This document shows positions 737 to 39,979 of a stretch of 39,979 nt of DNA, one piece after another. Origin of the DNA: Phragmitibacter sp. (lineage in GTDB: Bacteria; Verrucomicrobiota; Verrucomicrobiia; Verrucomicrobiales; Verrucomicrobiaceae); contig JANYJH010000025.1 in assembly GCA_025361865.1 (NCBI GenBank), positions 1 through 39,979 of the forward strand, given 5' to 3'. The notes beneath the pieces were generated by a model. It saw only the letters and a list, made by a program, of their open reading frames with translations. It was not told the origin of the DNA and made no database searches. The position numbers were made by a program, and so were the translations under genes. The stretch's first letter is position 1. Each line of letters begins with the position of its first letter.

Positions 737-3700
737 ATGAAAAAGGAAACCCCCACTCCATCCCACTCATCCGAGCCCTCACTGAGCCCGCCAGCGGCTC
801 AGCAGCAGACCGTTGGCCATGCCCCAGCGGAGGCGGCTCCGGCCTCCGCAGCCTCAGATAATGAGGGAGCAGTCACCATAGGGGGGCGGGTCTCCGCGTT
901 TCCCGTCGTCGGCATCGGCGCATCCGCAGGGGGCTTGGAGGCGCTGCAGGAGTTCTTCGCCGCTCTGCCGGTGGATACGGGCTTGGGCTTCGTCGTCGTG
1001 CAGCATCTGTCTCCCACGCATCCGAGTGACCTCGCAGAGATTCTCGGGAGAGCGACGCTGATGCCCGTGGCAGAAGCCACGGACGGCATCGAGCTGCTGC
1101 CGAACCATGTCTATACCATACCGCCCGGACAGGACATGACCCTTACGGAGGGTCGGCTTCAGCTTCATGCCATCGCATCGGGGAGGGTGGCGCATAACAT
1201 CGATCTCTTCTTCCATTCGCTGGCGGCGGACTGCGGACATAAAGCGCTGGGCGTGGTGCTGTCCGGTCTGCTGATGGATGGCGCGATGGGACTGGAGGAG
1301 ATCAAGATCGCGGGCGGCATCACCTTTGCCCAGGATGGGAGCGCCCAGCATCGGAGTATGCCGCAGAGTGCGGTGAAGGCCGGAGGGGTGGACTTCGTGC
1401 TGCCGCCGAAGGAGATCGCCCAGGAACTGGCGTTGATTTCCCGTCATGCCTATCTCCGGGACGGGAAGGGGAAGTCCGTGGTCGTGTCCAGCGTGCCCAC
1501 GCCGGAGCAGGGAGGGCTGGAGGGGTATGCGCGGATCATCCGGCTCATGCAAGTGGCCACGGGGATGGACTTCGTTAATTACAAGGTGAGCACCCTGCAC
1601 CGTCGCATCATGCGTCGCATGGTTTTGCATAATCTCTCCACCCTGCGGGAGTATGAGCAGCATCTGGAGAGAGTGCGGGGTTCCATTGATCTGCTCTTCC
1701 AAGACTTCCTCATCGGGGTCACCAGCTTTTTCCGGGATGCCGCGGCCTATGAGGCGGTCGCGCAAACCGTCATGGCACGTTTGGTATCAGATACGGCCCG
1801 GAGGGAGTCATTGCGGATGTGGTCCGTGGGCTGCTCCACCGGTGAGGAGGCGTATTCGCTGGCCATGATCTTCACGGAGGTGGCAGAAAAGCTGGGCAGT
1901 CCGGTGAGGCTCCATCTTTTCGGCTCAGATGCGAACAAAGCGGCCATCGAGAAGGCCCGCGCGGGCTGGTATCCGGCCAGTATTTCCCAAGAGGTCAGTG
2001 AGGAGAGATTGAAACGTTTCTTCACGCCCGAGGAGGGGGGTTACCGGGTCACGCGGAGGCTGCGGGAGTGCTGCATCTTCTCCGCTCATGACGTGCTGCA
2101 AGACGCGCCGTTCTCCCGGCTGGATTTCATCTCCTGCCGGAATCTGCTCATCTACCTGGAACCGGTGCTTCAGAAACGGGTGTTCTCCTTCTTGCACTAC
2201 GCCTTAAAGCCGGGCGGCATGTTGTGGCTGGGCAGCGCAGAAGCAGTGCATAGCGCCTCCCCGTTGTTTAAGATCGCGAGCATCCCGTATCATATTTATC
2301 TGCGGAGAGAGACCAGCACTGACCGCGAGGCGAAGGTCCGCTTTCCGGTGAAGCGCAGCCCGCCTGCACCTTCCCGCCACGAACGACCGCTGCTATCCGT
2401 CCCGCGCCCGACCACGCTCACGAAGGAAGCGGAGGGCATCCTGCTAACCCTGTTTTCCCCTCCGGGAGTGGTCATCAGCGCGAGTATGGAGATACTGCAA
2501 TACCGGGGGGACACGGGGGCCTACCTCGCGCCGCAGTCCGGGACTCCCAGTCAGAATTTGTTAAAGATGCTGCGGGAGGGGCTGCTGGTAAGCGTCCGTA
2601 ATGCCATCCTCCGCGCCGGTGAACTGGGGGAGAAGGTCACGGTGGAAGACCTGCGGGTGAAAATAGAGGGCGGTGTGCGCGTGGTGAACGTGGAGGTCAT
2701 CCCCATCACGAGCAGTCAGGGTCAGGGAAACGGTTACCTAGTGCTCTTTCTGGAATCCACGACGCCGCTAACTCCGCCGCACCAGGCGAAGCCGTCCTCT
2801 CTGGCCGGGCTGAGGGCGGACGGGCCGGAAGTGGCGCACCTCTCGGCAGAGAACACCCGGCTCACGCATGAGTTGGGTGCCACGCAGACCTACTTAAAAT
2901 CCCTCGTTCAGCAGCAGGAGCTGACGAATGAGGAACTGAACGCCGTCAATGATGAGTATCAGTCTTCCAATGAGGAGATGCAGAGCGTCAATGAGGAGCT
3001 GCAATCCTCGAAGGAGGAAATCCAGTCCAGCAATGAGGAGTTAATGACCCTCAATGACGAACTCAATTCCCGGAACACCGACCTCAATGAGTTAAACACC
3101 GCCCTGCGTGTCTTCGGAGAATACACGGCGAGCATCGTGAAGAGCATCCGCAGTCCGTTGCTAGTGTTGGATTCCCGCCTGTGCGTGAAGACGGCCAGCA
3201 GCGTCTTCTATGACAACTTCCGGGTCACGCGGGAAGCCACCGAGGGACGGCTCATCTTCGATCTGGGGAACGGACAGTGGAACATCCCCGCACTGCGAAA
3301 TCTCCTGGAGGAGATCTTGCCCCGCCAGCAGGTGATGAATGACTTCGAGGTGGAGCATAACTTCGATCATCTCGGGGTGCGCCGCATGATCCTGAATGCC
3401 TGCCGTCTTCCGCAGGGAGCGGGGAAGGAGCCGCTCGTGGTGCTGGCCATCGAGGACATTACGGACCGGAAGCTGGCTGAGGAAGCGCGTCTGAACCATG
3501 AGCAGCTCTACCGCACCATCGGGGAGAGCCTTGACTACGGCATCTGGATCTGTGCGCCGGACGGACGGAACCTTTACGCGAGTCCGAGCTTCCTCAAACT
3601 GGTGGGCCTGACGCAGCAGCAGTGCTCAGATGAAGGCTGGGGTTCCGTGCTCCATCCTGAAGAATCCGCGCAGACGATGGCGAAGTGGCAGGAGTGTGTG

Positions 3701-5743
3701 CGCACGGAGGGGAAGTGGGATCACGAGCACCGCTACCTAGGAACGGACGGCCAGTGGCATCCCATCCTCGCCCGCGGCCTGCCCGTGAAGAATGCGGAGG
3801 GGAAGGTGATCAGTTGGGTGGGGATCAATCTGGACATCAAACGCCTGAAGGAGGTGGAGCATTCTCTGAAGGTCAGCGAGGAGCGCTTCCGCATGATGGC
3901 GAATGCCATCTCCCAACTGGCGTGGATCGCGGAGCCGGATGGGCGGATCACTTGGTTTAATCAGCGCTGGTATGACTACACGGGCACCACTCTGGAAGAG
4001 TCAAAGAACTGGAGCTGGCAGACGGTGCATGATCCGGCGGAGCTCCCGCGAGTGATGAAGGTCTGGCAGGGCGCGCTGGCCAGTGGAGAGGGGTTTGAGG
4101 TCACCTTCCCCCTTCGCGGTGCAGACGGGACGTTCCGGCAGTTCCTCACGCGCGCTGTCCCCTTAAAGGATGAGGAGGGGAACGTGCAGCAATGGTTCGG
4201 GACGAACACGGATGTGAATGACAGTGAGTGCGCCCGACAGGCGCTCCTTCAGAGTGACCAACGCCTCCGTCTGGCCACGGATGCAGCGGAACTGGGGATC
4301 TGGAGCTGGGACCCGGTGAAGGATGTGGCCACCTGGGAGAATGACCGTCCGTTTGAAATCTTCGGACTGCCGAGAACGGAGCCTGCGCTCAGCGGGGAGC
4401 GCTTCGCGAAGGAGTTCCTGCATCCCGATGACGCGCTTATCTTCCAACAGGCGGTGGAGGGCACCGTCCTCAATGGGCAGCCCTTCTATTTTCAAGGCCG
4501 CGCTCACCGGACGGATGGGCAACTGCGCTGGATCAAGTTCACCGGCAAGGTGGAGGAGGGGAAGGAAGGCGGGCTGGCGCAGCATCTTGTCGGCACCGTG
4601 GAAGACATCACGGAGCGTAAGGCGGCGGAGTCCGCGTTGCTGGCTAGTGAAGCCCGTTTCCGGGCGGCGGTGGGCCTGGTGAGCAGCCTCGTGTGGACGA
4701 ACAGCGCGGATGGTAAGATGATCGGTGAGCAGCCGGGCTGGGGGAATTTCACCGGTCAGACCGTCGCGGAATCCCAAGGCTACGGCTGGGCGAAGGCCAT
4801 CCATCCCGAGGACGCGCAGCCGACCCTAGATGCCTGGGAGAAGGCCGTGGCGGAGAAGCGGGTCTATGAGTTCGAGCACCGCGTGCGGCGGCGGGATGGG
4901 GCGTGGCGCTTATGCACGGTGCAAGCCCAGCCGCTGCTGAACGAGAACGGCCTCATTACCGAATGGGTGGGCGTCCATACCGACATCACGGAGCGCAAGC
5001 AGCGTGAGGAAGAAATCCGCGTCTTGAACCAGACTCTGGAATGCCGCGTGCTGGAACGCACGACCGCTCTGCAAGCCGCGGTGGATGCGCTGGAGACGGA
5101 GATCGCCGCACGGGAACGGCTGGAAGTTGAAATCCTGGAGATCAGCGAGCGCGAGCAGAGTCGGGTGGGGCAGGATTTGCATGACGGGCTGTGCCAGGAG
5201 CTGGCGGGAACGGCCATGCTGGCGAATGTGCTGGCCATGAGACTGAAGAAGGAGGGCCACCCTTCTGCCGCTGCGGCCGAGGATGTCGCCCAGTGTGCGG
5301 TGACTTCCATCGAGACCACGCGCGGCATTGCCAAAGGGCTCTATCCCGTGGAGCTAGGCCGTGCCGGCCTGCTCGTGGCTTTGGAGAATCTGGCGCAGCA
5401 GGCCACCCAGCGGCTGGGCATTGACTGCCAGTTCATCCATGACGGCCATCCCGTGAAATGGAAGGCCACCGTGGAGATCCACCTTTACCGGATCGTGCAG
5501 GAATGCATCAACAACGCGCTCAAGCATGGAGAGGCGAGCCAAGTCATCATCGAGTTCCTGCGCAGTGGTGAAGAGAATCTGCTGACCGTGACCGATAACG
5601 GTGTGGGCTTGGCGGAGGCCGTGAAAACATCCGGCATGGGGATGCAGACCATGAGCTACCGCGCGCGGGTGATCGGCGCGACGCTGGACTTTTCCCGTCC
5701 GCCGGAAGGTGGCTGCCGCGTGACGTGTCGGCTGGGGAAGTGA
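737..5743 (+). CDS. CheB-CheR-multi-PAS hybrid sensor histidine kinase
   Basis: This 1668-residue protein reads as a chain of signalling modules. A Pro/Ala-rich leader (1-50) is followed by a CheB methylesterase domain (about 55-235) with its likely triad S63 (GASAGG), H90 (VVQHLSP) and D181 (LLMDG). A CheR methyltransferase (about 264-522) follows, with the SAM-binding motif GCSTGEEAYS and the SCRNLLIYL segment. Next come a long Glu/Asn/Ser-rich coiled coil (about 700-790), a PAS-like segment (about 800-910) and four PAS domains (about 918-1421, each closing with a DIT/DIK-type PAC end). A HisKA_3 domain with phospho-acceptor H1482 (LHDGL) and a HATPase_c domain (NNALKHG, DNGVGL) end the protein. 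It has no membrane segment, so it is probably cytosolic. No chemoreceptor or other che gene lies nearby, so the CheB/CheR substrates are unknown. It probably phosphorylates a NarL/FixJ-type regulator; the only one in view starts at 17625. The ATG is 37 bases after the preceding stop. Confidence 0.93.
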   Translation: MKKETPTPSHSSEPSLSPPAAQQQTVGHAPAEAAPASAASDNEGAVTIGGRVSAFPVVGIGASAGGLEALQEFFAALPVDTGLGFVVVQHLSPTHPSDLAEILGRATLMPVAEATDGIELLPNHVYTIPPGQDMTLTEGRLQLHAIASGRVAHNIDLFFHSLAADCGHKALGVVLSGLLMDGAMGLEEIKIAGGITFAQDGSAQHRSMPQSAVKAGGVDFVLPPKEIAQELALISRHAYLRDGKGKSVVVSSVPTPEQGGLEGYARIIRLMQVATGMDFVNYKVSTLHRRIMRRMVLHNLSTLREYEQHLERVRGSIDLLFQDFLIGVTSFFRDAAAYEAVAQTVMARLVSDTARRESLRMWSVGCSTGEEAYSLAMIFTEVAEKLGSPVRLHLFGSDANKAAIEKARAGWYPASISQEVSEERLKRFFTPEEGGYRVTRRLRECCIFSAHDVLQDAPFSRLDFISCRNLLIYLEPVLQKRVFSFLHYALKPGGMLWLGSAEAVHSASPLFKIASIPYHIYLRRETSTDREAKVRFPVKRSPPAPSRHERPLLSVPRPTTLTKEAEGILLTLFSPPGVVISASMEILQYRGDTGAYLAPQSGTPSQNLLKMLREGLLVSVRNAILRAGELGEKVTVEDLRVKIEGGVRVVNVEVIPITSSQGQGNGYLVLFLESTTPLTPPHQAKPSSLAGLRADGPEVAHLSAENTRLTHELGATQTYLKSLVQQQELTNEELNAVNDEYQSSNEEMQSVNEELQSSKEEIQSSNEELMTLNDELNSRNTDLNELNTALRVFGEYTASIVKSIRSPLLVLDSRLCVKTASSVFYDNFRVTREATEGRLIFDLGNGQWNIPALRNLLEEILPRQQVMNDFEVEHNFDHLGVRRMILNACRLPQGAGKEPLVVLAIEDITDRKLAEEARLNHEQLYRTIGESLDYGIWICAPDGRNLYASPSFLKLVGLTQQQCSDEGWGSVLHPEESAQTMAKWQECVRTEGKWDHEHRYLGTDGQWHPILARGLPVKNAEGKVISWVGINLDIKRLKEVEHSLKVSEERFRMMANAISQLAWIAEPDGRITWFNQRWYDYTGTTLEESKNWSWQTVHDPAELPRVMKVWQGALASGEGFEVTFPLRGADGTFRQFLTRAVPLKDEEGNVQQWFGTNTDVNDSECARQALLQSDQRLRLATDAAELGIWSWDPVKDVATWENDRPFEIFGLPRTEPALSGERFAKEFLHPDDALIFQQAVEGTVLNGQPFYFQGRAHRTDGQLRWIKFTGKVEEGKEGGLAQHLVGTVEDITERKAAESALLASEARFRAAVGLVSSLVWTNSADGKMIGEQPGWGNFTGQTVAESQGYGWAKAIHPEDAQPTLDAWEKAVAEKRVYEFEHRVRRRDGAWRLCTVQAQPLLNENGLITEWVGVHTDITERKQREEEIRVLNQTLECRVLERTTALQAAVDALETEIAARERLEVEILEISEREQSRVGQDLHDGLCQELAGTAMLANVLAMRLKKEGHPSAAAAEDVAQCAVTSIETTRGIAKGLYPVELGRAGLLVALENLAQQATQRLGIDCQFIHDGHPVKWKATVEIHLYRIVQECINNALKHGEASQVIIEFLRSGEENLLTVTDNGVGLAEAVKTSGMGMQTMSYRARVIGATLDFSRPPEGGCRVTCRLGK

Positions 5744-6005: not shown

Positions 6006-6518
6006 ATGAATATCAAAGAAAATCTCAACATCTACCTCCATGATCACATGGCAGGGGCCACTGGCGCTTTAGAACTGCTGGGTCACTTAGTGAGTGTAGC
6101 GCCGTCGCTCTCCCAACAGGTTCAGTTGTCGAAGCTGAAGGATTCTATCGAGACGGATTATGACGTGCTCGTGGAGATGGCGGAGCATTTGGGCATCGAG
6201 GAGAACGGGCTGAAAAAGGCCGTCGCCTGGATGGGGGAAAAGATCGCACGTCTAAAGCTCTCCTTTGCCAATGACGGAAGCGCGCTGGGCATGTTTCAAT
6301 CCCTGGAGGTGCTCGCCCTTGGGATCACGGGAAAGCGCGCCTTATGGGAGGCGCTGAAGGCTACGACTCCGCTGTGTCTGTCCAACTTCCCCTTTGATTT
6401 CGAGGATCTGAAGCTCCGCTCAGACGCCCAGCTTCAGGTGGTGGAAACCATGCGGATAGCGGCGGCCCGTGAAGCCTTTCAGGAGCCAGAGCCTGCTGAA
6501 CTCAGCACTGTCAAATAA
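6006..6518 (+). CDS. Conserved-looking small helical protein, function unknown
   Basis: This 170-residue, mostly helical protein has no signal peptide or membrane span. Its opening (NIYLHDHMAGATGALELL) and middle (LKKAVAWMGEKIARLKL, then ALGITGKRALWEAL) resemble uncharacterised four-helix proteins that I recall from soil bacteria. They look ferritin-like in pattern, but I see no complete EXXH metal-site pair. It follows the kinase terminator by about 185 bases and so probably has its own promoter. Another helical protein starts 16 bases downstream, which suggests a two-gene unit. The ATG at 6006 has no clear Shine-Dalgarno sequence, as for most genes here. Coding status is well supported by length, composition and spacing; function is unknown. 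Confidence 0.75.
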   Translation: MNIKENLNIYLHDHMAGATGALELLGHLVSVAPSLSQQVQLSKLKDSIETDYDVLVEMAEHLGIEENGLKKAVAWMGEKIARLKLSFANDGSALGMFQSLEVLALGITGKRALWEALKATTPLCLSNFPFDFEDLKLRSDAQLQVVETMRIAAAREAFQEPEPAELSTVK

Positions 6519-6534
6519 CCCTACAACTACCCTC

Positions 6535-7131
6535 ATGGACACCCAACACCAAGCCAACATCCTTCGCACTTACGTCAACGACATGATCGCCGTGGAGAGC
6601 GATGTCTCCCAAGCCATCACCGGACAACTGGACGATGATAAGGTGCACGAAGAGCCCGCTGTTTACATGCTGCTCAAAGAACTGGCGGACACTTCCCGCG
6701 CGCGGCTCGCCAAGCTGGAGAATCTTTCCGAGGCCCTCGATGGCAAGCTCGGGGCCATGGTCAAGGAGGCCGTGGCGACCACCACTGGCTACCTGGCCGG
6801 CCTTTACGGAATGGTGCGGAAACATCCAGTCTCCAAGATGCTGCGGGATGATCAAGTGGCCCTGAATCTCACCGCCACGGGCTACAGTATGCTTTACACC
6901 ACCGCGGTCACGTTTGACCACGAAGACGTGGCCGTCCTCGCCTTGGAACACCTCAATGAGATTCTTCCCCAGTTCGTTCGCGTGACCCGTCAGATCCCCA
7001 GCGTGGTGGTCATGGAACTGTCAGAGGGCATTCCCAACGCCGATGCTGAAGACCTAGCTACGGAGGCCATTGAGGACGCTTGGATGGAAGCCTGGGATCA
7101 AGATGCGGAAGTGCTGAACGTCATCCTGTGA
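6535..7131 (+). CDS. Small helical protein, function unknown (partner of the upstream gene)
   Basis: I chose the ATG at 6535 over an in-frame ATG at 6469, because 6469 lies inside the upstream gene. The product is 198 residues, acidic and mostly helical, with no signal peptide or membrane segment. The helix pattern (residues about 1-30, 45-75, 80-105, 115-155) is reminiscent of ferritin-like or DUF892-like bundles, but I cannot point to a full di-iron site. It sits 16 bases after the previous helical protein and 43 bases before a GlsB/YeaQ-type membrane gene, so the three probably form one stress-type operon. That grouping is inferred from spacing and strand. Confidence 0.72.
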
Positions 7132-7174: not shown

Positions 7175-7429
7175 ATGCACTACATCTGGATGCTCATCAT
7201 TGGCCTCGTCATCGGGGCCGTCGCTAAACTCCTCACCCCCGGTCGTGATCCTAGTGGTTGCGTCGTCACCATTCTCATCGGCATCGTGGGGTCCTTCCTT
7301 GCCGGCTTTCTAGGCCGCTCCTTCGGCTGGTATGCCGAAGGAGAACCCGCAGGCTTTATCGCTTCGGTCTTGGGAGCTATCCTGCTGCTTTCGTTGATGC
7401 GCCTCATCACGAAAGGGACGGCTCGGTAA
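7175..7429 (+). CDS. GlsB/YeaQ/YmgE family small membrane protein
   Basis: This 84-residue protein has three hydrophobic segments (about 3-17, 29-46 and 60-76). It shows the family's Gly-rich pattern: [16 protein letters not shown], then [16 protein letters not shown] and a C-terminal [13 protein letters not shown]. These small inner-membrane proteins (once called transglycosylase-associated) are common among general-stress genes; their molecular role is unclear. It is the last gene of the 6.0-7.4 kb plus-strand group. Its stop is one base from the stop of the convergent LigD polymerase gene, leaving no room for a separate terminator between them. Confidence 0.88.
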
Positions 7430-7430
7430 G

Positions 7431-8348
7431 TTAGGCGAACTTCACCTTGCCAAACGCAGGTAATTTCTGCTTCAAGGTCAGCACTGGGGCGAACAGATCA
7501 CCCCACTTGCTGACCCGCTTCAGCACTTCCTCAGGCTCGAAGGCGAGCGGCTTACTTTTACGTCCCGCCTTCTCCACTTCGCTCCATTGCAGGGGAGTGG
7601 AGATGGTCGGTGAATCCTTCGCCCGTAGGGAATAGACGCACACAGTCGTCTTCTTATCATCGTTCTGACTCCAGTCGATGAAGACCTTTCCTGCTCGCAG
7701 GCTCTTCTTCATCTCCGATACGACCAAGGCCGGGAACTGTGCCACGAGGGACACGGCCACATGATGGGCGAAGGCCTTGGTCTTCTCATAAGTCATGGCG
7801 GTGTTCAGCGGCACGACCAGTTGCATCCCTTTGGACCCTGATGTCTTCGGAAAACACTTCAGTCCCAGCGCCTCAAACATGTCTCTGATGAGGAGAGCCA
7901 CTTCGCAGCACTTCACCAAATCCGCAGGGGGGCCGGGATCAAGATCGAAGACCAAGGCCGTAGGACGGAGCAAGGCGGGCGCGCGGTGCTGAAAGGTATG
8001 CAGTTCCAGATTGGCGATGTTTGCCGCCCAGAGCAGAGAGGGCAGATCATTGAGCAGGCAGTAGTCAATCTCCCCGCCATCGGACTTGGCGACCTTGGCC
8101 GTCTTGATCCATTCCGGAGCGTGAGAGGGGCACTGCTTTTCATAAAAGAACAGGCCGTTGACGCCATCAGGATAGCGCTTTAGCGAGACGGGGCGCCCCT
8201 TAAGATGAGGCAGCAAGACGGGAGCGATGGAGGCATAGTAGTTCAGCACCTGCCCTTTCGTGAACCCCGTGTCTGGATAGAATATCTTCTCCAGATGAGA
8301 CACGGCCACCTCGCGGTTTTCTACTTTCAGGATCGTCTTGGCTTTCAT
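7431..8348 (-). CDS. ligD: LigD polymerase domain protein (NHEJ primase/polymerase)
   Basis: This 305-residue stand-alone protein has the archaeo-eukaryotic primase-like polymerase fold found in bacterial LigD. Visible family marks are LEKIFYPDTGFTKGQVLNYY near the N terminus, FDLDPGP (metal-binding Asp pair), TSGSKGMQLVVPL and the later VFIDWSQND (third acidic residue and nucleotide site). Such domains add ribo- or deoxynucleotides at broken DNA ends during non-homologous end joining. In many bacteria this domain is fused to the ligase; here it is a separate gene whose ATG overlaps the end of the phosphoesterase-ligase gene by 4 bases, so translation is probably coupled. It is the last gene of the minus-strand repair cluster. 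Confidence 0.93.
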   Translation of the reverse strand: MKAKTILKVENREVAVSHLEKIFYPDTGFTKGQVLNYYASIAPVLLPHLKGRPVSLKRYPDGVNGLFFYEKQCPSHAPEWIKTAKVAKSDGGEIDYCLLNDLPSLLWAANIANLELHTFQHRAPALLRPTALVFDLDPGPPADLVKCCEVALLIRDMFEALGLKCFPKTSGSKGMQLVVPLNTAMTYEKTKAFAHHVAVSLVAQFPALVVSEMKKSLRAGKVFIDWSQNDDKKTTVCVYSLRAKDSPTISTPLQWSEVEKAGRKSKPLAFEPEEVLKRVSKWGDLFAPVLTLKQKLPAFGKVKFA

Positions 8349-9940
8349 GGGAGGCTGGCGGCTTCGCGGATGACTTTGGCTGGCTCCTTATCCTCGCGCA
8401 GCCCCAGATAGACGGGTTGGCGGAGGCGTTTATCCTTGGTCCATTCCGCAAACTTTAACTCGCAGACCAGGGTGGGCTTGATCCAATGGCATTTCTTCAT
8501 CACCGCAGCGGTGATTCCCTGACCATACCGTCCGACCCGCTCTTCAGGAAGATCGGAGAAGGGACAGGTCTTCTGCGCCTGCTCCCCGAACTGCTCCGCA
8601 AGATCACTGAGCACGGCGGCACTGAATCCCGTGCCCACTTTTCCAGCATAGACGAGCTTATTCTTTTCATACACGCCCACGAGCAAAGCACCCATGTGCT
8701 GCCGCGCTCCGCTGGGCTCCGTGTAACCTCCGATGACAAACTCCTGCTGCTTCACCAGTTTCAGCTTGATCCAAGCCCCACTCCTGCGCCCCGATTCATA
8801 AAGGGAGCAGGAGCGTTTTCCGATCAGCCCTTCAAGGCCCAACTTCTTCGCCTGCTTTAAGAGCGGTCCGGACTCGCTTCCCAGAGTGGGTGAGAAGCGG
8901 ATCATGCCCGATGAAGTGGCCAATAACTTCTCCAGCTTTCCCCGTCGTTCTTCCAACGGGAGATGCACGAGGCTCTTCCCGCGCAGGCTGAGCAGATCAA
9001 AGACATAGTAACGTAAGGGCGGACGCTCCTGACCGAGTTCATAGGCTTGGAGCAGTTGAAAAGAGGAACGTCCTTTCGGGTCCAAGGCCACGATCTCCCC
9101 ATCCCAAATAGCCTCCACTTTCGTGAACTCCTGAAAGGCCTCGACGACTTCAGGGAACTTGGCCGCGAGATCATGATTCGTGCGGGAGAGCAACCTGACC
9201 GCGCCGCCCTTCAGGTAGGTCACCGCTCGGAACCCGTCCAGTTTGACCTCATAGAGCCAGTCACCGCTCGGCGCTCCGTCTGCTGATTTCGCTTTCATCG
9301 GTTCGATGAATTCAGCTTCAATCAGCGCGGGCGTTGTCTTGAGCTTGGGCTTAGGCTTCTTCTTCGGAACTTTGACTGAAGAATTCCCCCCAGGGTTTCC
9401 CTTGGATAACTCAGCCAACGTCTTGCCCGAAAGGGCGGAGAGATCCTGCTTCTCCTTGCTGAGCTTCGGGTGGTCTTCTCCGCCCCGGATGATGAGCCAT
9501 TGTTCCTCATCCTTCAGCCTTACCAGATACCATTCGCCACTGAGCTTATGCCCGGTGAGGACGAAGTGCAGCTTACCTCCGGCCAGTTCCTTCTTGGGGG
9601 ACTTGCTCAGAGGTTCATAGGTTCCCCGATCCCAGATTTGCACGGTTCCTCCGCCATATTGCCCTTTGGGAATGGTGCCTTCAAAGTCGATATAGGAAAC
9701 GGGATGATCTTCGACCTTGATGGCCAGTCGTTTTTCACCCTTGGCCATCGGCATTCCTTTCGGCACGGCCCATGAGATCAAAGTTCCACCGAGCTCCAAG
9801 CGGAAGTCATAATGGAGGCGGGATGCGTCATGCTTCTGAATAACGAACCGAGCCTGTGGCCCCGAGCCCTTCGCCAATCTTGCTGGGGGTTCTCGCGTGA
9901 CAGCGAAGTCTCGCTTCCGACGGTATTCGGTGAGAGACAT
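8345..9940 (-). CDS. ligD: LigD: 3'-phosphoesterase plus ATP-dependent DNA ligase
   Basis: The 531-residue protein starts with the LigD phosphoesterase domain (about 20-170; RFVIQKHDASRLHYDFRLE, then GTIPKGQYGGGTV). A Lys/Pro-rich linker leads to the ATP-dependent ligase core (about 215-525). The adenylated lysine is K233 in YEVKLDGFRAV, and later parts include WDGEIVALD, GLIGKR and the OB-fold region IKLKLVKQQEFVIGGY. It seals double-strand breaks and trims 3' ends in NHEJ with Ku. It lacks the polymerase domain, which is encoded by the next gene with a 4-base overlap. Its start is 8 bases after the Ku stop. The order phosphoesterase-ligase-polymerase matches the domain order of Pseudomonas-type LigD, as if one polypeptide had been split or never fused. 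Confidence 0.95.
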   Translation of the reverse strand: MSLTEYRRKRDFAVTREPPARLAKGSGPQARFVIQKHDASRLHYDFRLELGGTLISWAVPKGMPMAKGEKRLAIKVEDHPVSYIDFEGTIPKGQYGGGTVQIWDRGTYEPLSKSPKKELAGGKLHFVLTGHKLSGEWYLVRLKDEEQWLIIRGGEDHPKLSKEKQDLSALSGKTLAELSKGNPGGNSSVKVPKKKPKPKLKTTPALIEAEFIEPMKAKSADGAPSGDWLYEVKLDGFRAVTYLKGGAVRLLSRTNHDLAAKFPEVVEAFQEFTKVEAIWDGEIVALDPKGRSSFQLLQAYELGQERPPLRYYVFDLLSLRGKSLVHLPLEERRGKLEKLLATSSGMIRFSPTLGSESGPLLKQAKKLGLEGLIGKRSCSLYESGRRSGAWIKLKLVKQQEFVIGGYTEPSGARQHMGALLVGVYEKNKLVYAGKVGTGFSAAVLSDLAEQFGEQAQKTCPFSDLPEERVGRYGQGITAAVMKKCHWIKPTLVCELKFAEWTKDKRLRQPVYLGLREDKEPAKVIREAASLP

Positions 9941-9948
9941 GGCTTTGT

Positions 9949-10800
9949 TCAGGCAGCCCGGCGGGGTTTACGACTCTTCTTGGCGGCTGGCTTCTTCTTG
10001 GCGGACGCAGCGTTTTTCGGCGGAGCCTTGGCACCCTGACGGATGCTTTCTTGAAGCACGGATACGAGGTCAATCACATTGCCCATCACCTTCTTGGTCG
10101 CTTTCTTTGCGACCGTCTTTCCGCCGTGTTGGATCTTGTCATCAATCAACTCTTGGATGGAGGCCCGGTATTCATCTTTATAAGCTTCAGGGGTCCAATG
10201 CTGCGTCATGGTTTCAATCAGCGTCTTCGCCATGTCGAGTTCGTTCTTGGCGATCTTGGACTCCTTCGGCTGCTTGAAATCTTCCACATCCCGGAGTTCT
10301 GAGGCGAAGTGCATTAATTCGAGCATGAGGCCTTCGTTTTGCGGCTTCACCGCCGCGAGGTGTTGCTTCGTCTTGAGCACTACGCGGGCAATGCCGATCT
10401 TTCCCGTGTCCTTCAAGGCGTTCCGCAGCAACACATACGCCCGGTCTGCGCCCTTCTGTGGCTCCATGTAATAGGGCTTGTGGAAGAACACTGGATTGAC
10501 TTCATCCAGTTCCACGAAGGCCATGATGTCCACGGTTTGGGTGGCCTCGATGTCCACCCGCTTAAAGTCCTCCTCCTTCAGCACCACATACTTGCCTTTC
10601 TCGTGCTCATAGCCTTTCACGATCTGATCCCAAGGCACTTCCTTCCCGTCCTTCTCCGCCACCCGTTTGTAGTTGACCGGACTCAAGTCACCCGCCCGTA
10701 GCAGACGGAATTTCAAGTCCTCCGTGTAAGTGGCTGGATACAAGGTGATGGGAATGTTCACCAGACCGAAACCGACGGAACCTTTCCAGATGGGACGCAT
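9949..10800 (-). CDS. ku: Ku protein (bacterial NHEJ end-binding)
   Basis: This 283-residue Ku homodimer-type protein would ring broken DNA ends and recruit LigD. I chose the ATG at 10800 because Ku proteins begin close to this motif (MRPIWKGSVGFGLVNIPI); an upstream in-frame ATG at 10848 would add 16 unlikely residues. The core beta-barrel and dimerisation region are present (GKEVPWDQIVKGYE, YYMEPQKGADRAYVLLRNAL, LMLELMHFASELRD). The C terminus (about 255-283) is a Lys/Ala/Pro-rich basic tail of the kind known to add DNA binding in some bacterial Ku proteins. It is followed at 8 bases by the ligase gene. Confidence 0.95.
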   Translation of the reverse strand: MRPIWKGSVGFGLVNIPITLYPATYTEDLKFRLLRAGDLSPVNYKRVAEKDGKEVPWDQIVKGYEHEKGKYVVLKEEDFKRVDIEATQTVDIMAFVELDEVNPVFFHKPYYMEPQKGADRAYVLLRNALKDTGKIGIARVVLKTKQHLAAVKPQNEGLMLELMHFASELRDVEDFKQPKESKIAKNELDMAKTLIETMTQHWTPEAYKDEYRASIQELIDDKIQHGGKTVAKKATKKVMGNVIDLVSVLQESIRQGAKAPPKNAASAKKKPAAKKSRKPRRAA

Positions 10801-10831
10801 AGAATGAAGAGTAAGTGTTTGGCAAGGCCAA

Positions 10832-11047
10832 CTAACAGAGGGAGGCATGATCGCTTGGTTTCACATGGATCGTGAGGGGGAGGAGAATCTCCTGATCATG
10901 CGCCTCCAGAAAGTCCTCAACGGCACGCATCACGGCGAGTGGCAGTTCGGAGCAGTCCTCCACAAATTGAGGTTCTCGAAGAATCACATCGCCTTCAGTG
11001 CGAAGCGTGAACTCAAGGCGTTTCAGTAGTGGAGGAGAAGTCGTCAT
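10832..11047 (-). CDS. Small protein between DUF72 and Ku, function unknown
   Basis: A 71-residue ORF lies between the DUF72 and Ku genes on their strand, 31 bases before the Ku start and 59 after the DUF72 stop. The sequence is balanced and protein-like (a beta-type start, LEFTLRTEGDVILREPQFVED, split by a helical LPLAVMRAVEDFLEAHDQ segment) and ends in a hydrophobic strand (ILLPLTIHV). I do not recognise it. A shorter plus-strand ORF in the same place (10847-11029) is less protein-like. Position in the repair cluster is the only hint to its role. Confidence 0.55.
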   Translation of the reverse strand: MTTSPPLLKRLEFTLRTEGDVILREPQFVEDCSELPLAVMRAVEDFLEAHDQEILLPLTIHVKPSDHASLC

Positions 11048-11106
11048 GGCATTTCATTCGGAACCGGTCAGAGAGTTGCGTGCGCCCTGATGGGCCTCTC
11101 AGGGCA

Positions 11107-12024
11107 TCATCGCTTACTTGTGATATTCACGGCATTGAGCTGAGCCATGAATTCCTTCGCGTTCTTGATGGCAAAACCATCGCGGTCATTGTTGAAGTAA
11201 GCCCAGACGCGTTTGCAGCCGCTCGCTCGGATGCGCTGCGTCCAGACGGCCAGTTCCTCTGCGGTGTAATCATGCCGATACCAGGCGGTCAAACCGTGAA
11301 AGCGAACGTAGATTTCATCCGCCGTGACGACGAGTTCATCCGGCAGCTTCGGGCCGCTGCATGAACAGAAGATCGTGCCATTCTTCTTAAAAGCGGCATA
11401 GACTTTCTCGTTCCACCAACTGCGGTGCCGGAACTCCACCACGTTCCGCCGTGCGGGGTCGAGCTGGCTGAGAAGGGTTTTCAACCGGGCCGCTGTGTAG
11501 TGGTAACTGGGCGGCAACTGGAATAAGAAGCAGCCCATGCGTGGGCCGAGAAGATCGGCGATGTAACCAAAATCTTTGATCAGAATTCTCGTGCGGCTGA
11601 ACTGTTTCACATGGGTGATCAGCTCACAGGCTTTCACGGTATAGACGAACTCTCTGCTCCCCGCCTGTTTCACCCATGCTTTGACGGCATTAACGGTCGG
11701 CCACGCATAGAAGGGGGCGTTGAGTTCCACGGTCGGGAAGTTATAGGCATAGTGCGTGAACCATTCTTTCGTCGGCATGTCTTGCGGATAAAAGGCACCG
11801 CGCCAGTGCCAGTAGAACCAGCCGGAGCAGCCCACATTAACAGCGGGAAGATCGTGATTGAACGGAGCCGGAGCGGGAGCCGAGGCAAGACGGGCATCAT
11901 GCATCTTTAGGGCTCGTCCGGCATTGGCTTCCCTTTGTTTCTCGCGCTTCTCCTTTTTACGGGTCCGCCTTTCCTCCGCTGTGAGGACGGGCTTGAGCTT
12001 AGTGATGGGTGTCTCTTTCTTCAT
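11107..12024 (-). CDS. DUF72 (YecE-like) TIM-barrel protein with a basic N-terminal extension
   Basis: The DUF72 core covers about residues 55-305: NVGCSGWFYWHWRGAFYP, an ELNAPFYAWPT segment, FVYTVKACELITHVK, LFQLPPSYHYT, VVEFRHRSWW and YVRFHGLTAWYRHDY. These are hallmarks of the YecE/DUF72 family, whose biochemical activity is not established. I chose the ATG at 12024, which has an AGGA about 11 bases upstream; an in-frame ATG at 12153 would extend the protein by 43 residues. The N terminus (about 1-50) is very basic (TAEERRTRKKEKREKQREAN) and could contact nucleic acid or fold as a helix. It heads a co-directional row with the 71-aa protein, Ku and LigD, so a repair-related role is possible but unproven. 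Confidence 0.9.
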   Translation of the reverse strand: MKKETPITKLKPVLTAEERRTRKKEKREKQREANAGRALKMHDARLASAPAPAPFNHDLPAVNVGCSGWFYWHWRGAFYPQDMPTKEWFTHYAYNFPTVELNAPFYAWPTVNAVKAWVKQAGSREFVYTVKACELITHVKQFSRTRILIKDFGYIADLLGPRMGCFLFQLPPSYHYTAARLKTLLSQLDPARRNVVEFRHRSWWNEKVYAAFKKNGTIFCSCSGPKLPDELVVTADEIYVRFHGLTAWYRHDYTAEELAVWTQRIRASGCKRVWAYFNNDRDGFAIKNAKEFMAQLNAVNITSKR

Positions 12025-12202
12025 CTCGCACTGTCCTGGCTCTGAGGATTCGCTGGACTGTCTGTCCGTGGATGGGCCGTCTATGAAATGAGCGCCTATT
12101 AAAACCGCCGAAGGACTACCGGAATCCGATTCTATACGGAATGGCTCATCCACGGTGCTTCATCGGTGATGAGTCGAAGCCTATAAAAAATCAAAAACGA
12201 CT

Positions 12203-13003
12203 ATGTATCACCACATTAAAAAACTCATGTATACCGTCCGCATCGGGACGCCGGACCCACGGTTTGGCAACATGCTGCTGGAACAGTTTGGCGGCGCTAA
12301 TGGCGAACTCGCCGCCGCTCTTCAATACTCGATCCAGGGGCTGAACTGTGAAGACCCGGCCCGCAAGGACTTGCTCATGGACATCGGCACGGAGGAACTG
12401 AGCCATCTGGAAATCGTCGGCACGCTGGCGCGGATGCATTTGAAGCCTATGAAGACCGCCCGCGAGGCGGCGGAGGCTGATCCACTGGTGGCCATTGCCG
12501 GTGGGGGTGGGGTGACGCTCTGCAACTCGATGGGGAATGCGTGGACGGCGGATTACCTGAAAGTGACGGGTGAGCTGGATGTTGACTTGCGCAGTAACAT
12601 CGCTGCGGAAGCGCGCGCGAAGATTGTCTATGAACGCCTGATCAACTTTTGCGATGATCCCGGCACCAAGGACGCGCTGCAATTCCTGATGACCCGTGAG
12701 ATCACTCACTTGAAAGCCTTCATGGCCGCGCTGGAGAGTATGGGGAAAGACCCTTTGGTCATTGGCTTGATTCAGCCGACGCCGGGCATCGTCGAACAGT
12801 TTTACAATGATTCGACGGGTGAAGGAGATGATGGAGAGACGGATGAGCGAGGCCCGTGGAATGAAGGTGATGACATTGAATTCATCGAAGGGCCTGCGCA
12901 GCCCATCGCGGCGGCGACTGAGGAGGAAGTGACTAAAGAGATTCACCAAGCCGCCCGTCGCACCTCTGCCAAAAGCTCACGCACCAAGTCAAAGCGCGCC
13001 TAA
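12203..13003 (+). CDS. Manganese (non-haem) catalase
   Basis: This 266-residue ferritin-like protein matches the dimanganese catalase family, which disproportionates hydrogen peroxide. By comparison with the known Lactobacillus enzyme the metal ligands are E35 (GGANGELAA), E65 and H68 (TEELSHLEIV), E136 (AAEARAKIVYERL) and H169 (TREITHLKAF). All are present, so the enzyme should be active. The C terminus carries an acidic stretch (about 200-220) and then a short basic Ser/Lys-rich tail not needed for the core. The gene is divergent from DUF72 across 178 bases. A TATAAA at 12182-12187 lies close to the start, but I cannot assign a promoter with confidence. Confidence 0.93.
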   Translation: MYHHIKKLMYTVRIGTPDPRFGNMLLEQFGGANGELAAALQYSIQGLNCEDPARKDLLMDIGTEELSHLEIVGTLARMHLKPMKTAREAAEADPLVAIAGGGGVTLCNSMGNAWTADYLKVTGELDVDLRSNIAAEARAKIVYERLINFCDDPGTKDALQFLMTREITHLKAFMAALESMGKDPLVIGLIQPTPGIVEQFYNDSTGEGDDGETDERGPWNEGDDIEFIEGPAQPIAAATEEEVTKEIHQAARRTSAKSSRTKSKRA

Positions 13004-32144: not shown

Positions 32145-33545
32145 TTACCAAAGAAATTTCAAGACCTCGATCACGTCCTTCCCGGGGTTCAGGATCACAG
32201 CGAGCAGCTTCTTCGCGTAGAAGGCCTCGGCTGCGGCGATGAGGCGCGGCTTCAAATCATCCTCGGGATGTTTTAAGCTGCCGGACAACTTTAGCGGAGT
32301 CCAAAAAAAGGCTCCTCTCTTCTCCTTGAATACTTCTTCGCGTGCCCCCGGAAAGCTGGTGAGAACCTCGCCAGAGACACCCAGTTGGAGCCTCGCTTGC
32401 AAGGCTCCTTCTTTGACAGTGAAGCGTCCCTCAACGCGCAGGAGACCGGTAACCTCAAGCTCGAATTCCGTGGCTTCCAACTTCGCGCCATCCCATGAGA
32501 AATCACCTTCTAGTTGGTTGAACTTAAGCTGACGGAACTGCTTCTTCTCTGTGAACTCGGCCACCCGGTTCAAAGCGGGAACATCGTGAAGTAGGGCACT
32601 GGTGAAGCGGATTCGGCCCTTCACTTGGGCATGAGCTTTCTCCTTAAGTTGCTGCGTGACTTGAGTGTCCGAGACAAACGTCGCCTCAAACTTGGAGCGC
32701 AATTCCTCTGACAGGAAGGCATGGGTCGGACACTTTTCAAAGCGCAGCTTCAGGTTCAATGAAGGGTTCTCTACAAACTCGAAAAGCCCGGTAGCGTGAA
32801 TTTCGCTTTCATGGCCGAGCGTCAGCACGGCCTCCTGAATCTCCAAGGAGTGCGAGGAATCCAGCATCCGCAGGTAGGTTACTTGAGCTTGAGGCCAGCC
32901 GCTTTGCTGAAACGTCCCGCCATGCCCGACGGCCTGAAAGTTATCACCCGAGTGCGTGATCTCCGTGGAGACGTTCAAGAGTCTGCCCAAGTTCTCTTCA
33001 GATTTACCCCACAGCACATCAGCTCGTGCGATGACGAGTTTTTGAATCTCCGTCTTTAACAAAGGCTCCTTCTCGGCGGGTGGTTCCAAGGTAGGTGGTT
33101 CCTTGAATGGGGTCGTCAGATGTTTGCTCGCCGCAGCCCCAAAAGCAGCCTCAATATGTTCTGCACAAAGCTCCCTGATCAGCCATTTGCCTTGCAGGAC
33201 TTCACTGAGTGCTCCGTCTGCCTTGATCTGATGAACCCGTAGTTCAGTGAGAGATCGCGGGGGCTCGGTCTTGCAAATCATGCCTTCACAAGAGACGCTG
33301 AGTCCATTCCAATCAAAAGGTAGAAAGCCCACCTTCCCTTTCATTTTTCTGGCCGTATTCCGTGCAATCATCAACTGAATGTCCTCACGTTCCAGAGCGG
33401 ATTCGATCGCTCGCCGTCCCCATAAGAAATATGCCAGTGTGACCAGTATGCTCATCCCAAGGATGATCCCCAATGTTCTGAAACGCCCACGGCTTCCGAG
33501 GATGCCGTGGGCGTGCGCTGCCGGATTCGAGGGTTTGTCTGACAT
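32145..33545 (-). CDS. AsmA-like membrane-anchored protein, function unknown
   Basis: The 466-residue protein has one N-terminal membrane span (about 24-43, RTLGIILGMSILVTLAYFLW). A long beta-rich body follows with the repeating strand pattern of AsmA/DUF748-type proteins, e.g. VGFLPFDWNGLSVSCEGM, LRVHQIKADGAL and the late LEATEFELEVTGLLRVEGRFTV. This group is placed at the envelope and linked to lipid transport between membranes. The assignment is by pattern, not by a strict motif. Its neighbours (DUF3833 lipoprotein, secreted low-complexity protein, Mla operon nearby) fit an envelope role. Confidence 0.65.
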   Translation of the reverse strand: MSDKPSNPAAHAHGILGSRGRFRTLGIILGMSILVTLAYFLWGRRAIESALEREDIQLMIARNTARKMKGKVGFLPFDWNGLSVSCEGMICKTEPPRSLTELRVHQIKADGALSEVLQGKWLIRELCAEHIEAAFGAAASKHLTTPFKEPPTLEPPAEKEPLLKTEIQKLVIARADVLWGKSEENLGRLLNVSTEITHSGDNFQAVGHGGTFQQSGWPQAQVTYLRMLDSSHSLEIQEAVLTLGHESEIHATGLFEFVENPSLNLKLRFEKCPTHAFLSEELRSKFEATFVSDTQVTQQLKEKAHAQVKGRIRFTSALLHDVPALNRVAEFTEKKQFRQLKFNQLEGDFSWDGAKLEATEFELEVTGLLRVEGRFTVKEGALQARLQLGVSGEVLTSFPGAREEVFKEKRGAFFWTPLKLSGSLKHPEDDLKPRLIAAAEAFYAKKLLAVILNPGKDVIEVLKFLW

Positions 33546-33571
33546 GATTTAAGAGCCCAATGGAAGCCTGG

Positions 33572-34369
33572 TTACTTTCCTTTGGCTCCGCCGGAACCGC
33601 CCGATGTGCCACCACTTGACGTGCCGCCTGATGTTCCACTACCTGTTCCCCCACTTGAAGGAGGCGTTCTGGGCGTTGCCCCATTTGCTGAAGGCGTCGT
33701 AGGCGTCGCGCCGTTCGCAGAAGGAGTGGTCGGTGTGCCACCATTCGCGGGAGGATTTGTCGGCGTGCTTCCAGTGCCGGAGGATTGACCGTTACTGCCG
33801 TTTCTCACTCCATTCTGATTCGTGCCATTGGTGTTGGTCCCGTTCTGGTTATTGACACCGTTTTGCATATTGGTGCCATTTTGCTGTTGGGGATTCGTTT
33901 GGTTTTGCGAAGCCCCGTTGTTGTTCCCCTGAGTGTTTATGTTGCCAGAAGCATTGAAGCCCCCGTTGAGACCGCCTCCTTGCTGGTTAAAAGGGGGCAG
34001 GACGATGGTATTGCCTGTGCCATCCACGAGGTTATTGGGCGCGGCCGTCAACTGCCCGTCCATGCTGAGCATGCTTCCCGAGGGGATGTTCTGCGGTGCT
34101 CCATTGAAGCCCACGAATCCCAGCGGCGTAACGCGGAAACTCATTTCCCGAGTCAGTGGTGTCGCACGACCACCGCTGACCACATAGACGTTTCCATTGA
34201 GGAAGATGAAACCGCTTGGTGCTTGCTGCGGTGCAAGGCCGGATCGGTTTTCTCCGGTAATGTTTTCGGAAGCGTTTAGACGCTCCTGAGTTGTGGTGCT
34301 CGTAGTCTGAGCAGAGGCTGTCGCCATCAACAACAGTTGGGCGAGTGGAAGAATAAGAAGGGTTTTCAT
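33572..34369 (-). CDS. Secreted low-complexity protein with DUF6799-like domain
   Basis: The 265-residue protein has a Sec signal (LLILPLAQLLLMATASA, cleavage about residue 20). A globular part (about 50-108; FIFLNGNVYVVSGGRAT, EMSFRVTPLGFVGFNG, GSMLSMDGQL) resembles DUF6799. From about residue 125 it becomes low complexity: Asn/Gln/Gly-rich, then Thr/Pro with tandem TTPSANGA units, and finally Gly/Ser/Thr. The tail may be a flexible spacer or surface polymer. Function is unknown. It lies 26 bases before the AsmA-like gene on the same strand. Confidence 0.75.
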   Translation of the reverse strand: MKTLLILPLAQLLLMATASAQTTSTTTQERLNASENITGENRSGLAPQQAPSGFIFLNGNVYVVSGGRATPLTREMSFRVTPLGFVGFNGAPQNIPSGSMLSMDGQLTAAPNNLVDGTGNTIVLPPFNQQGGGLNGGFNASGNINTQGNNNGASQNQTNPQQQNGTNMQNGVNNQNGTNTNGTNQNGVRNGSNGQSSGTGSTPTNPPANGGTPTTPSANGATPTTPSANGATPRTPPSSGGTGSGTSGGTSSGGTSGGSGGAKGK

Positions 34370-38774: not shown

Positions 38775-38821
38775 GATTTGTAATCAGCAGGTCGTCGGTT
38801 CGAGTCCGACAGTCGGCTCCA
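38775..38821 (+). tRNA. tRNA-Thr(UGU) 3' fragment, probable attachment-site scar
   Basis: Bases 38775-38821 match the anticodon-loop-to-CCA part of a tRNA-Thr: loop TTTGTAA (anticodon TGT), 3' anticodon arm TCAGC, T-arm GTCGG/TTCGAGT/CCGAC and acceptor end GTCGGCTCCA. Upstream there is no D-arm and the 5' anticodon strand pairs only 3 of 5 positions. AGCCGA at 38753-38758 could pair with the acceptor end, but with too few bases between for a D-arm. This is not a working tRNA gene as it stands. Such 3' fragments arise where an element integrates into a tRNA gene and duplicates its end. Confidence 0.75.
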
Positions 38822-38838
38822 TGCAGGACATGCATGGA
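38818..38838. repeat. Inverted repeat at the tRNA fragment's CCA end
   Basis: TCCATGCA and TGCATGGA are perfect 8-bp inverted copies around GGACA (38818-38825 and 38831-38838). One arm includes the CCA end of the fragment, so it may be a recombinase arm site or a tRNA-end terminator. Confidence 0.5.
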
Positions 38839-38978
38839 AGCCTTAATTTGAACCCCACAGCTTTCATCAGGCTGTCTTGTCGGGGCATTCGATTGCGGCA
38901 CCTGTCTAGAAAGCGACTGGGTTTCGCATAAACACACCTTGCCCCTTGGCGTATTCCTCGCTTTGATGGTGAACATCT

Positions 38979-39979
38979 ATGATGCCACCGCCAAACCAAA
39001 ACCCAGAGCAATCCGCGCGTGATCGTATCGACACGATGCTGGAGGATGCAGGCTGGATGGTGCAGGACAAGAAGGCGATCAATTTCAATGCCGGTCCTGG
39101 CATCGCAGTGCGGGAGTATCAGACCGACATCGGCCCTGCTGACTATGTGCTCTTCGTTGACGGTCATGCTGTTGGCGTAATCGAAGCCAAGAAAGAGGAC
39201 CTTGGCCAGAACCTCACCACTATCGAGGAGCAGACCGAGGGCTACGCCAATGCGAAGCTGAAGTGGGTCAAGAACCACCATCCACTCCCGTTCCTTTACG
39301 AAAGCACGGGCAAGATTACCCGTTTCACCGATGCTCGTGATCCGAAACCGCGCTCGCGCGAAGTGTTCTCGTTCCACCGACCCGAGACCATGCGCGACTG
39401 GGTGGAGGTAGGCACCTCGCTCCGCACAAAGCTGAATGCCATGCCCTTGCTCAATCCGCAGAAGCTTCCGGCTTCTGCACTTGGTCTGAGGGACTGCCAA
39501 GAAATCGCCATCACTAAACTTGAAGTTTCTCTCAAGAATAACAAGCCGCGAGCGCTCATTCAGATGGCCACGGGTTCCGGTAAGACCTTCACGGCCATCA
39601 CGGAGATCTATCGTCTCCTGAAGTTCGGCAAGGCCAAGCGTATCCTCTTCCTTGTTGATACCAAGAACCTCGGCGAGCAGGCTGAGCAGGAGTTCATGGC
39701 TTACACGCCGACTGACGACAACCGCCGCTTCACCGAGCTTTACACCGTCCAGCGCCTCAACTCGTCGTTCATCTCCCCGCACGCGCAGGTTTGCATTTCG
39801 ACGATTCAGCGCATGTATTCGATCCTCAAGGGCGAGGAATTGCCGACGGGCGCAGAGGACGAAAACCCGGCCGAGCGGCGAACGCTCAGCAAGACGCCGC
39901 TACCCGTCGTCTACAATCCCACGCTTCCGCCCGAATTCTTCGACATCGTCATTATCGACGAATGCCACCGCTCGATTTA
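38979..39979 (+). CDS. hsdR: Type I restriction enzyme HsdR subunit, 3' end beyond window
   Basis: The frame is open from the ATG at 38979 to the window end (333 codons), so the gene continues outside. The N-terminal PD-(D/E)xK nuclease shows E46, D55 (GPADYVLF) and E69-A-K71. The helicase part starts with Walker A ATGSGKT (K205) and reaches the DECH box at D327 (IIDECHRS). The ALGLRDCQEIAI segment before Walker A is typical of EcoEI-type HsdR. HsdR cleaves and translocates unmethylated DNA with HsdM and HsdS, which should lie to the right. A second ATG at 38982 is also possible. A 332-codon minus-strand frame over the same DNA is a shadow. Confidence 0.93.
   Translation, partial: MMPPPNQNPEQSARDRIDTMLEDAGWMVQDKKAINFNAGPGIAVREYQTDIGPADYVLFVDGHAVGVIEAKKEDLGQNLTTIEEQTEGYANAKLKWVKNHHPLPFLYESTGKITRFTDARDPKPRSREVFSFHRPETMRDWVEVGTSLRTKLNAMPLLNPQKLPASALGLRDCQEIAITKLEVSLKNNKPRALIQMATGSGKTFTAITEIYRLLKFGKAKRILFLVDTKNLGEQAEQEFMAYTPTDDNRRFTELYTVQRLNSSFISPHAQVCISTIQRMYSILKGEELPTGAEDENPAERRTLSKTPLPVVYNPTLPPEFFDIVIIDECHRSI

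Follow-up and report, generated by a model that had tools for sequence, protein, structure and literature searches.

Does a DUF72 gene that stands upstream of a bacterial end-joining operon act together with that operon, or does it share its surroundings for other reasons? The question is raised by a 39,979-base contig of Phragmitibacter sp. (JANYJH010000025.1, assembly GCA_025361865.1), analysed here in its entirety and hereafter called the window, which belongs to a metagenome-type assembly of 455 contigs, 91% complete and with 3% contamination. Its minus strand carries consecutive genes for a DUF72 protein, a 71-aa protein, Ku, a LigD-type 3'-phosphoesterase (PE) fused to a ligase, and a separate LigD polymerase (Pol). 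Ku and LigD perform bacterial non-homologous end joining (NHEJ), whereas DUF72 is a widespread family, with members such as E. coli YecE and Thermotoga TM1631, for which we know of no enzymatic activity. Across the class Verrucomicrobiae, DUF72 genes lie near ku far more often than random placement predicts, and we consider, with a probability of about 0.45, that DUF72 is a stress and DNA-repair accessory and no obligate NHEJ subunit: a lesion- or end-acting TIM-barrel protein whose genes have, within stress islands, been recruited time and again to the vicinity of NHEJ genes. The cluster comprises the following features:

11107..12024, minus strand: DUF72 (PF01904) protein, 305 aa; Pfam score 197.1 bits against a cut-off of 25.3.
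11845..12024, minus strand: basic N-terminal extension of the DUF72 protein, about 60 aa; predicted single helix at residues 16-47, with a partly conserved pattern.
10832..11047, minus strand: 71-aa protein; no Pfam or NCBIfam match; relatives in two other genomes only, away from ku.
9949..10800, minus strand: Ku, DNA-end-binding protein, 283 aa; TIGR02772, 311 bits against 150, and PF02735.
8345..9940, minus strand: LigD-type 3'-phosphoesterase and ATP-dependent ligase, 531 aa, without the polymerase domain; TIGR02777, TIGR02779, PF13298, PF01068 and PF04679.
7431..8348, minus strand: stand-alone LigD polymerase (primase-polymerase) protein, 305 aa; PF21686, 297 bits, and TIGR02778, 295 bits.

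All Ku and DUF72 genes were located in the 61 ku-bearing genomes of the class and their pairwise distances measured, expected counts being derived from random placement that keeps copy numbers and genome sizes. Seventeen of these genomes, from 11 families, have a DUF72 gene no more than 5 kb from ku (expected, 0.41), 13 have one within 3 kb (expected, 0.28) and seven within 1 kb (expected, 0.15); the proximity is non-random and recurs across genomes from different families. Clustering of the open reading frames (ORFs) around ku ranks DUF72 (21 genomes, 13 families) directly behind Ku and LigD; the groups that follow it reach eight and seven families. The searched literature holds no description of a DUF72-Ku link and no paper that joins DUF72 and LigD, and the recurrent proximity in Verrucomicrobiae appears to be undescribed there.

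The arrangement of the two genes differs among genomes. DUF72 stands upstream of the ku operon, in one direction with it, in G000, G354, G224, G301, G278 and G140, downstream of pol in G027 and G270, and divergent from ku in G371. The order in G354 is DUF72, 41 bp, LigD, 7 bp, Ku, while in G224 DUF72, an SDR oxidoreductase gene, ku, PE/ligase and pol follow one another in a single direction with short gaps. In five genomes of family f14 (G314, G220, G367, G348 and G181; loci L079-L083) DUF72 is convergent with ku, with 3-349 bases between the two and no ligD beside that ku, so that the pair stands as a two-gene unit without a ligase in its vicinity. In the DUF72 tree the ku-linked proteins are spread over several deep clades, which makes a repeated origin of the proximity probable; most of those beyond the window's own branch share 21-35% identity with the window protein.

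Other gene groups share these neighbourhoods. An SDR oxidoreductase cluster recurs near ku in seven families (e.g., L084:7270-8145), the gene between DUF72 and ku in G224 being on the same strand. Topoisomerase IB-type genes occur near ku in seven genomes from four families (L087:4605-5699, L085:3480-4568, L047, L066, L091, L034 and L037), that of L087 being confirmed by Pfam. In addition, contig C10 of G224 carries three different DUF72 genes (at 96994, 114142 and 128386) in about 32 kb, with ku-ligD at 98720 among them.

Several observations weigh against a functional tie between DUF72 and end joining: (i) the ku-linked genomes are partly dependent, five of the 17 coming from family f14; (ii) DUF72 occurs in 9/14 control genomes, Ku in just one of them, and since it is this common without Ku it cannot be NHEJ-specific; (iii) the 14 remaining ku-bearing genomes of the family do not have the window's DUF72 subfamily next to ku, nor is it adjacent to ku in G116, G224, G001 and G070; (iv) no Ku was found within 9 kb of a DUF72 of this subfamily in 15 Rhizobiales plasmid loci; (v) the 5 kb around ku contain DUF892 in seven genomes from four families and BrkB in four genomes from two families, both above chance; and (vi) an AP_endonuc_2 (PF01261) match is absent from the window protein, for which the Pfam scan gave DUF72 alone at E<=0.1. 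In favour of a tie, though as a supporting observation only, about 31/33 ku-bearing genomes of a class sample have DUF72 versus 51/~151 ku-less ones, as raw counts uncorrected for phylogeny or genome size. A phylum-wide search for ku returned almost only genomes already sampled, and no independent replicate.

The fifth point bears on an explanation only slightly less probable than functional cooperation, namely that ku/ligD and DUF72 are separate cargo of stress islands (PAS kinases, DUF892, Mn catalase, CsbD, BrkB, SDR, ECF sigma), held together by shared regulation or mobility and not by work on the same DNA ends. The window is such a general-stress island, encoding a hybrid CheB/CheR/PAS kinase, a MASE1-PAS kinase, a LuxR regulator, DUF4142, BrkB, CsbD, an ECF sigma factor and a Mn catalase, and rhizobial relatives of the window DUF72 reside in similar islands without Ku. 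The distance test applied to DUF72 (114 copies) was run in the same way for DUF892 (146 copies), BrkB (113) and Mn catalase (11), the last lying within 5 kb of ku in two genomes from two families, again above chance. Because DUF892 and BrkB near ku also exceed chance, some of the DUF72 excess can be put down to island clustering. At similar copy number, however, the DUF72-ku signal is clearly stronger than that of either gene, though the margin over DUF892 is modest: DUF72 exceeds DUF892 and BrkB within 5 kb in genomes (17 versus 7 and 4) and families (11 versus 4 and 2), and most of all within 1 kb (seven genomes versus none and one), with p=0.04 over DUF892 and p=0.001 over BrkB when genomes are counted as independent. 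The tight same-strand arrangements in G354, G224 and G027 likewise speak against pure island clustering. The Mn catalase of the window (12203-13003), considered as a part of the system, was rejected, a copy near ku being found only in the window genome and G116.

At the level of the window's own family the picture is narrower. Among its 15 ku-bearing genomes, DUF72 adjoins the ku operon only in the window genome and in G027, where it lies 31 bp after pol and is 27% identical to the window protein, that is, of a different subfamily. The restriction of the window subfamily to this one position beside ku, with 14 ku-bearing relatives lacking it there, is what chance gene shuffling in a single lineage, without functional meaning here, would leave behind; since DUF72 genes are strongly over-represented near ku in the class as a whole, we regard this account as improbable. 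The proposal of the first-pass annotation that DUF72 may assist end joining is accordingly upheld in one respect, the class-wide proximity at the level of the DUF72 family, and weakened in another, by the rarity of the arrangement in its own family and by Rhizobiales relatives that have no Ku nearby.

The closest relatives of the window DUF72 are those of G116, G272 and G224 (70-72% identical), followed by N-extended DUF72s on Rhizobiales plasmids, about 58-67% identical with the basic N terminus included. The extension follows the pattern err-rr--rR-kQR-aN--RA-kMH--R, which 13 verrucomicrobial (Verrucomicrobiae) and Rhizobiales sequences share in part; the basic N terminus, already remarked on in the first-pass annotation, is a conserved feature of one subfamily. 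In the AlphaFold2 model of the window protein, predicted from the single sequence and poor overall (predicted local distance difference test, pLDDT, 44), the helix at residues 16-47 is the best-modelled part, with a mean pLDDT of 83-87 for residues 11-30 and 63 for residues 31-40. Sequences from Verrucomicrobiae and Rhizobiales are intermixed in the N-extended clade, whose internal support is weak, and the scattered occurrence of the N-extended DUF72 in different phyla points to lateral transfer. A linkage of this exact subfamily to Ku on Rhizobiales plasmids was considered and rejected, none being found in the 15 loci; an ATP-dependent ligase lies within 2 kb of DUF72 in two of them, and the annotated loci carry many stress genes. 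No DUF72 relatives were found in viral contigs. In one Mesorhizobium plasmid locus (L102) a gene for an SOS response-associated peptidase (SRAP) lies about 1.3 kb upstream of the N-extended DUF72; SRAP and DUF72 have been named together as neighbours of polB2 (PMC11791011).

The window protein is homologous to TM1631 (PDB code, 1VPQ) over residues 57-296 (phmmer to 1vpq_A, E=1.4e-18), and by this homology it is a putative member of the TIM-barrel family. TM1631 has been compared with endonuclease IV, with Asn44, Lys72, Gln114, Arg145 and Arg191 proposed to hold DNA phosphate and Tyr47/Tyr48 proposed to enter the helix, a prediction that is computational only; DUF72 is at most a structural relative of the endonuclease IV/AP endonuclease 2 family (PMC3828134). 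The equivalents of the five phosphate residues in the window protein are N102, K131, Q169, R199 and R241. In an alignment of 39 DUF72 proteins including TM1631, N44, K72, R145 and R191 are identical in all 39 and Q114 in 38; 34 of the proteins retain Tyr48, and at the position of Tyr47 most have Phe. Furthermore, DUF72 genes are enriched near polB2, and the family shows a close structural relation to UV-damage endonuclease (PMC11791011).

Because the phosphate-site residues are conserved and DUF72 occurs near polB2 and is structurally close to UV-damage endonuclease (PMC3828134, PMC11791011), we favour a function that targets damaged DNA or DNA ends and is useful alongside NHEJ without being confined to it. 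From these residues and the gene neighbourhoods we infer DNA binding, a catalytic step and a part in end joining: DUF72 would bind damaged DNA or DNA ends and trim, open or protect them before or alongside joining by Ku and LigD. Its genes may have been drawn repeatedly to ku/ligD through use under the same DNA-damaging stress, and the protein would also work without Ku. A bolder version, in which DUF72s at large are widespread, unrecognised DNA-end- or lesion-processing TIM-barrel enzymes independently recruited several times as accessory factors of Ku-LigD joining, seems to us unlikely. The reproducible link to Ku and LigD in one bacterial class, together with the invariant phosphate-site residues, provides a specific and cheap hypothesis, DNA-end or lesion processing, which makes the function of a large uncharacterised family testable and points to the organisms and gene pairs suited for it.

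The core of the cluster is by comparison conventional. The Ku profile is matched, PE, ligase and Pol profiles score above their cut-offs (TIGR02777, 205 versus 144 bits; TIGR02779, 302 versus 228 bits; TIGR02778, 295 versus 215 bits), and ku is linked to both ligase and polymerase; the ligase motif KLDG and the H/H/D motif of the PE are legible in the PE-ligase translation, as is the metal motif DLDPG in that of Pol. In the predicted pathway the broken ends, held by Ku, would be filled or extended by Pol and cleaned at their 3' side by PE, with the ligase sealing them. Ku is carried by 15/68 genomes of the same family, about 55-77% identical to that of the window and closest in G002 and G012 (75-77%), and two public loci that match the window Ku (L005, L006) belong to Verrucomicrobium sp. 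The order ku, PE-ligase, separate pol on one strand is shared by 14 of the 15 ku-bearing genomes, while split and fused LigD are both present in the remainder of the class. The separation of ligase and polymerase, as first described, is real, but its reading as something unusual was rejected, since the same order in 14/15 family genomes and split forms elsewhere in the class identify it as inherited, with no novelty of the window locus. LigD functions encoded as separate genes have already been described (PMC7719229, PMC5124664). Together these three genes make up an NHEJ operon of the usual kind, conserved in the family, from whose content end joining is predicted; the DUF72 and 71-aa genes upstream of it are lineage-specific additions in the window genome. 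Conservation of gene order around ku thus holds for the three core genes, whereas none of the other genomes examined showed the five-gene order.

The 71-aa ORF is a genuine protein gene because its relatives in G002 and G012 (53-56% identical, aligned over 64 codons) end at the same point, the ratio of nonsynonymous to synonymous substitution (dN/dS) between those two is about 0.1 (0.11/1.14), and third-position changes dominate. A BLAST search of 143 genomes and a profile search of 384 class genomes gave convincing relatives in these two only; weak matches in G081 and G298 were not accepted, and none were found in plasmids or viral contigs. In G002 the relative (C1:4223706) lies 1.17 Mb from ku (C1:5389057), and in G012 it is on C2 with ku on C7; a peroxiredoxin (G012) and a run of pseudopilin-like proteins (our own reading) surround the relatives. 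Since both genomes also carry ku-PE/lig-pol, this comparison of contexts is a fair test. The AlphaFold2 model reached a pLDDT of 76 in the best of five (45-49 in the others), with no significant fold match in the PDB (best E, 1.5).

These contexts bear directly on the proposal that DUF72 and the 71-aa protein are both dedicated accessory subunits of a five-gene NHEJ operon. Tight same-strand spacing in the window and the family-level DUF72-Ku proximity are what such an operon would produce, but the 71-aa relatives far from ku largely refute it for this gene, the five-gene order has not recurred, and DUF72 is common in genomes without Ku; we consider it very improbable. As a suggested NHEJ factor, the 71-aa protein does not co-occur with ku in its only two relatives' neighbourhoods, the very outcome that the first-pass annotation had named as refuting, and was rejected on that ground; it may well be a passenger gene of unrelated or unknown function.

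The ORF coordinates bear out the five-gene minus-strand layout, with gaps of 59, 31 and 8 bases followed by a 4-base overlap. No terminator-like sites were found in the intergenic gaps of the cluster, which fits one transcript and is no proof of it, and promoter-like sites occur at chance frequency. The Ku start is the ATG that homologs use (283 aa); for DUF72 an alternative GTG start lies upstream at 12153, with homolog alignments beginning only at about residue 3 of the protein that starts at ATG 12024. Elsewhere in the window, a 1668-aa hybrid (737-5743) joins a CheB methylesterase and a CheR methyltransferase to several PAS domains and ends in a histidine kinase. Two neighbouring plus-strand ORFs (6006-7131; 170 and about 202 aa) have no Pfam or NCBIfam assignment and lie beside a Transgly_assoc membrane protein gene (7175-7429), which stands tail to tail with pol, the ends one base apart (7429-7431). 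Three minus-strand ORFs of 466, 265 and 332 aa (32145-34369 and 38784-39782) have no Pfam match.

Compared with known systems, the window shares with the split, 'nonconventional' form of bacterial Ku-LigD NHEJ (PMC7719229) the contiguous, same-strand arrangement of Ku, PE, ligase and Pol, but encodes PE-ligase and Pol as separate genes, the usual state in this class, and adds the upstream DUF72 and 71-aa genes. The NHEJ systems of archaea and Streptomyces, whose domains are encoded by separate genes (see PMC5124664), resemble it in keeping the polymerase apart from the ligase within one cluster, whereas in the window PE remains fused to the ligase and only Pol is separate. Relative to TM1631 (1VPQ, PMC3828134), the window DUF72 preserves the equivalents of N44, K72, Q114, R145, R191 and Y48, has F in place of Y47, and adds a predicted 60-aa basic N-terminal helix. 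The Rhizobiales plasmid DUF72s have the same basic N terminus but reside in stress islands with no Ku within 9 kb. Finally, the DUF72 genes found near polB2 operons of archaea and bacteria (PMC11791011) likewise stand beside a DNA-damage operon, which there encodes a translesion polymerase and here Ku and LigD.

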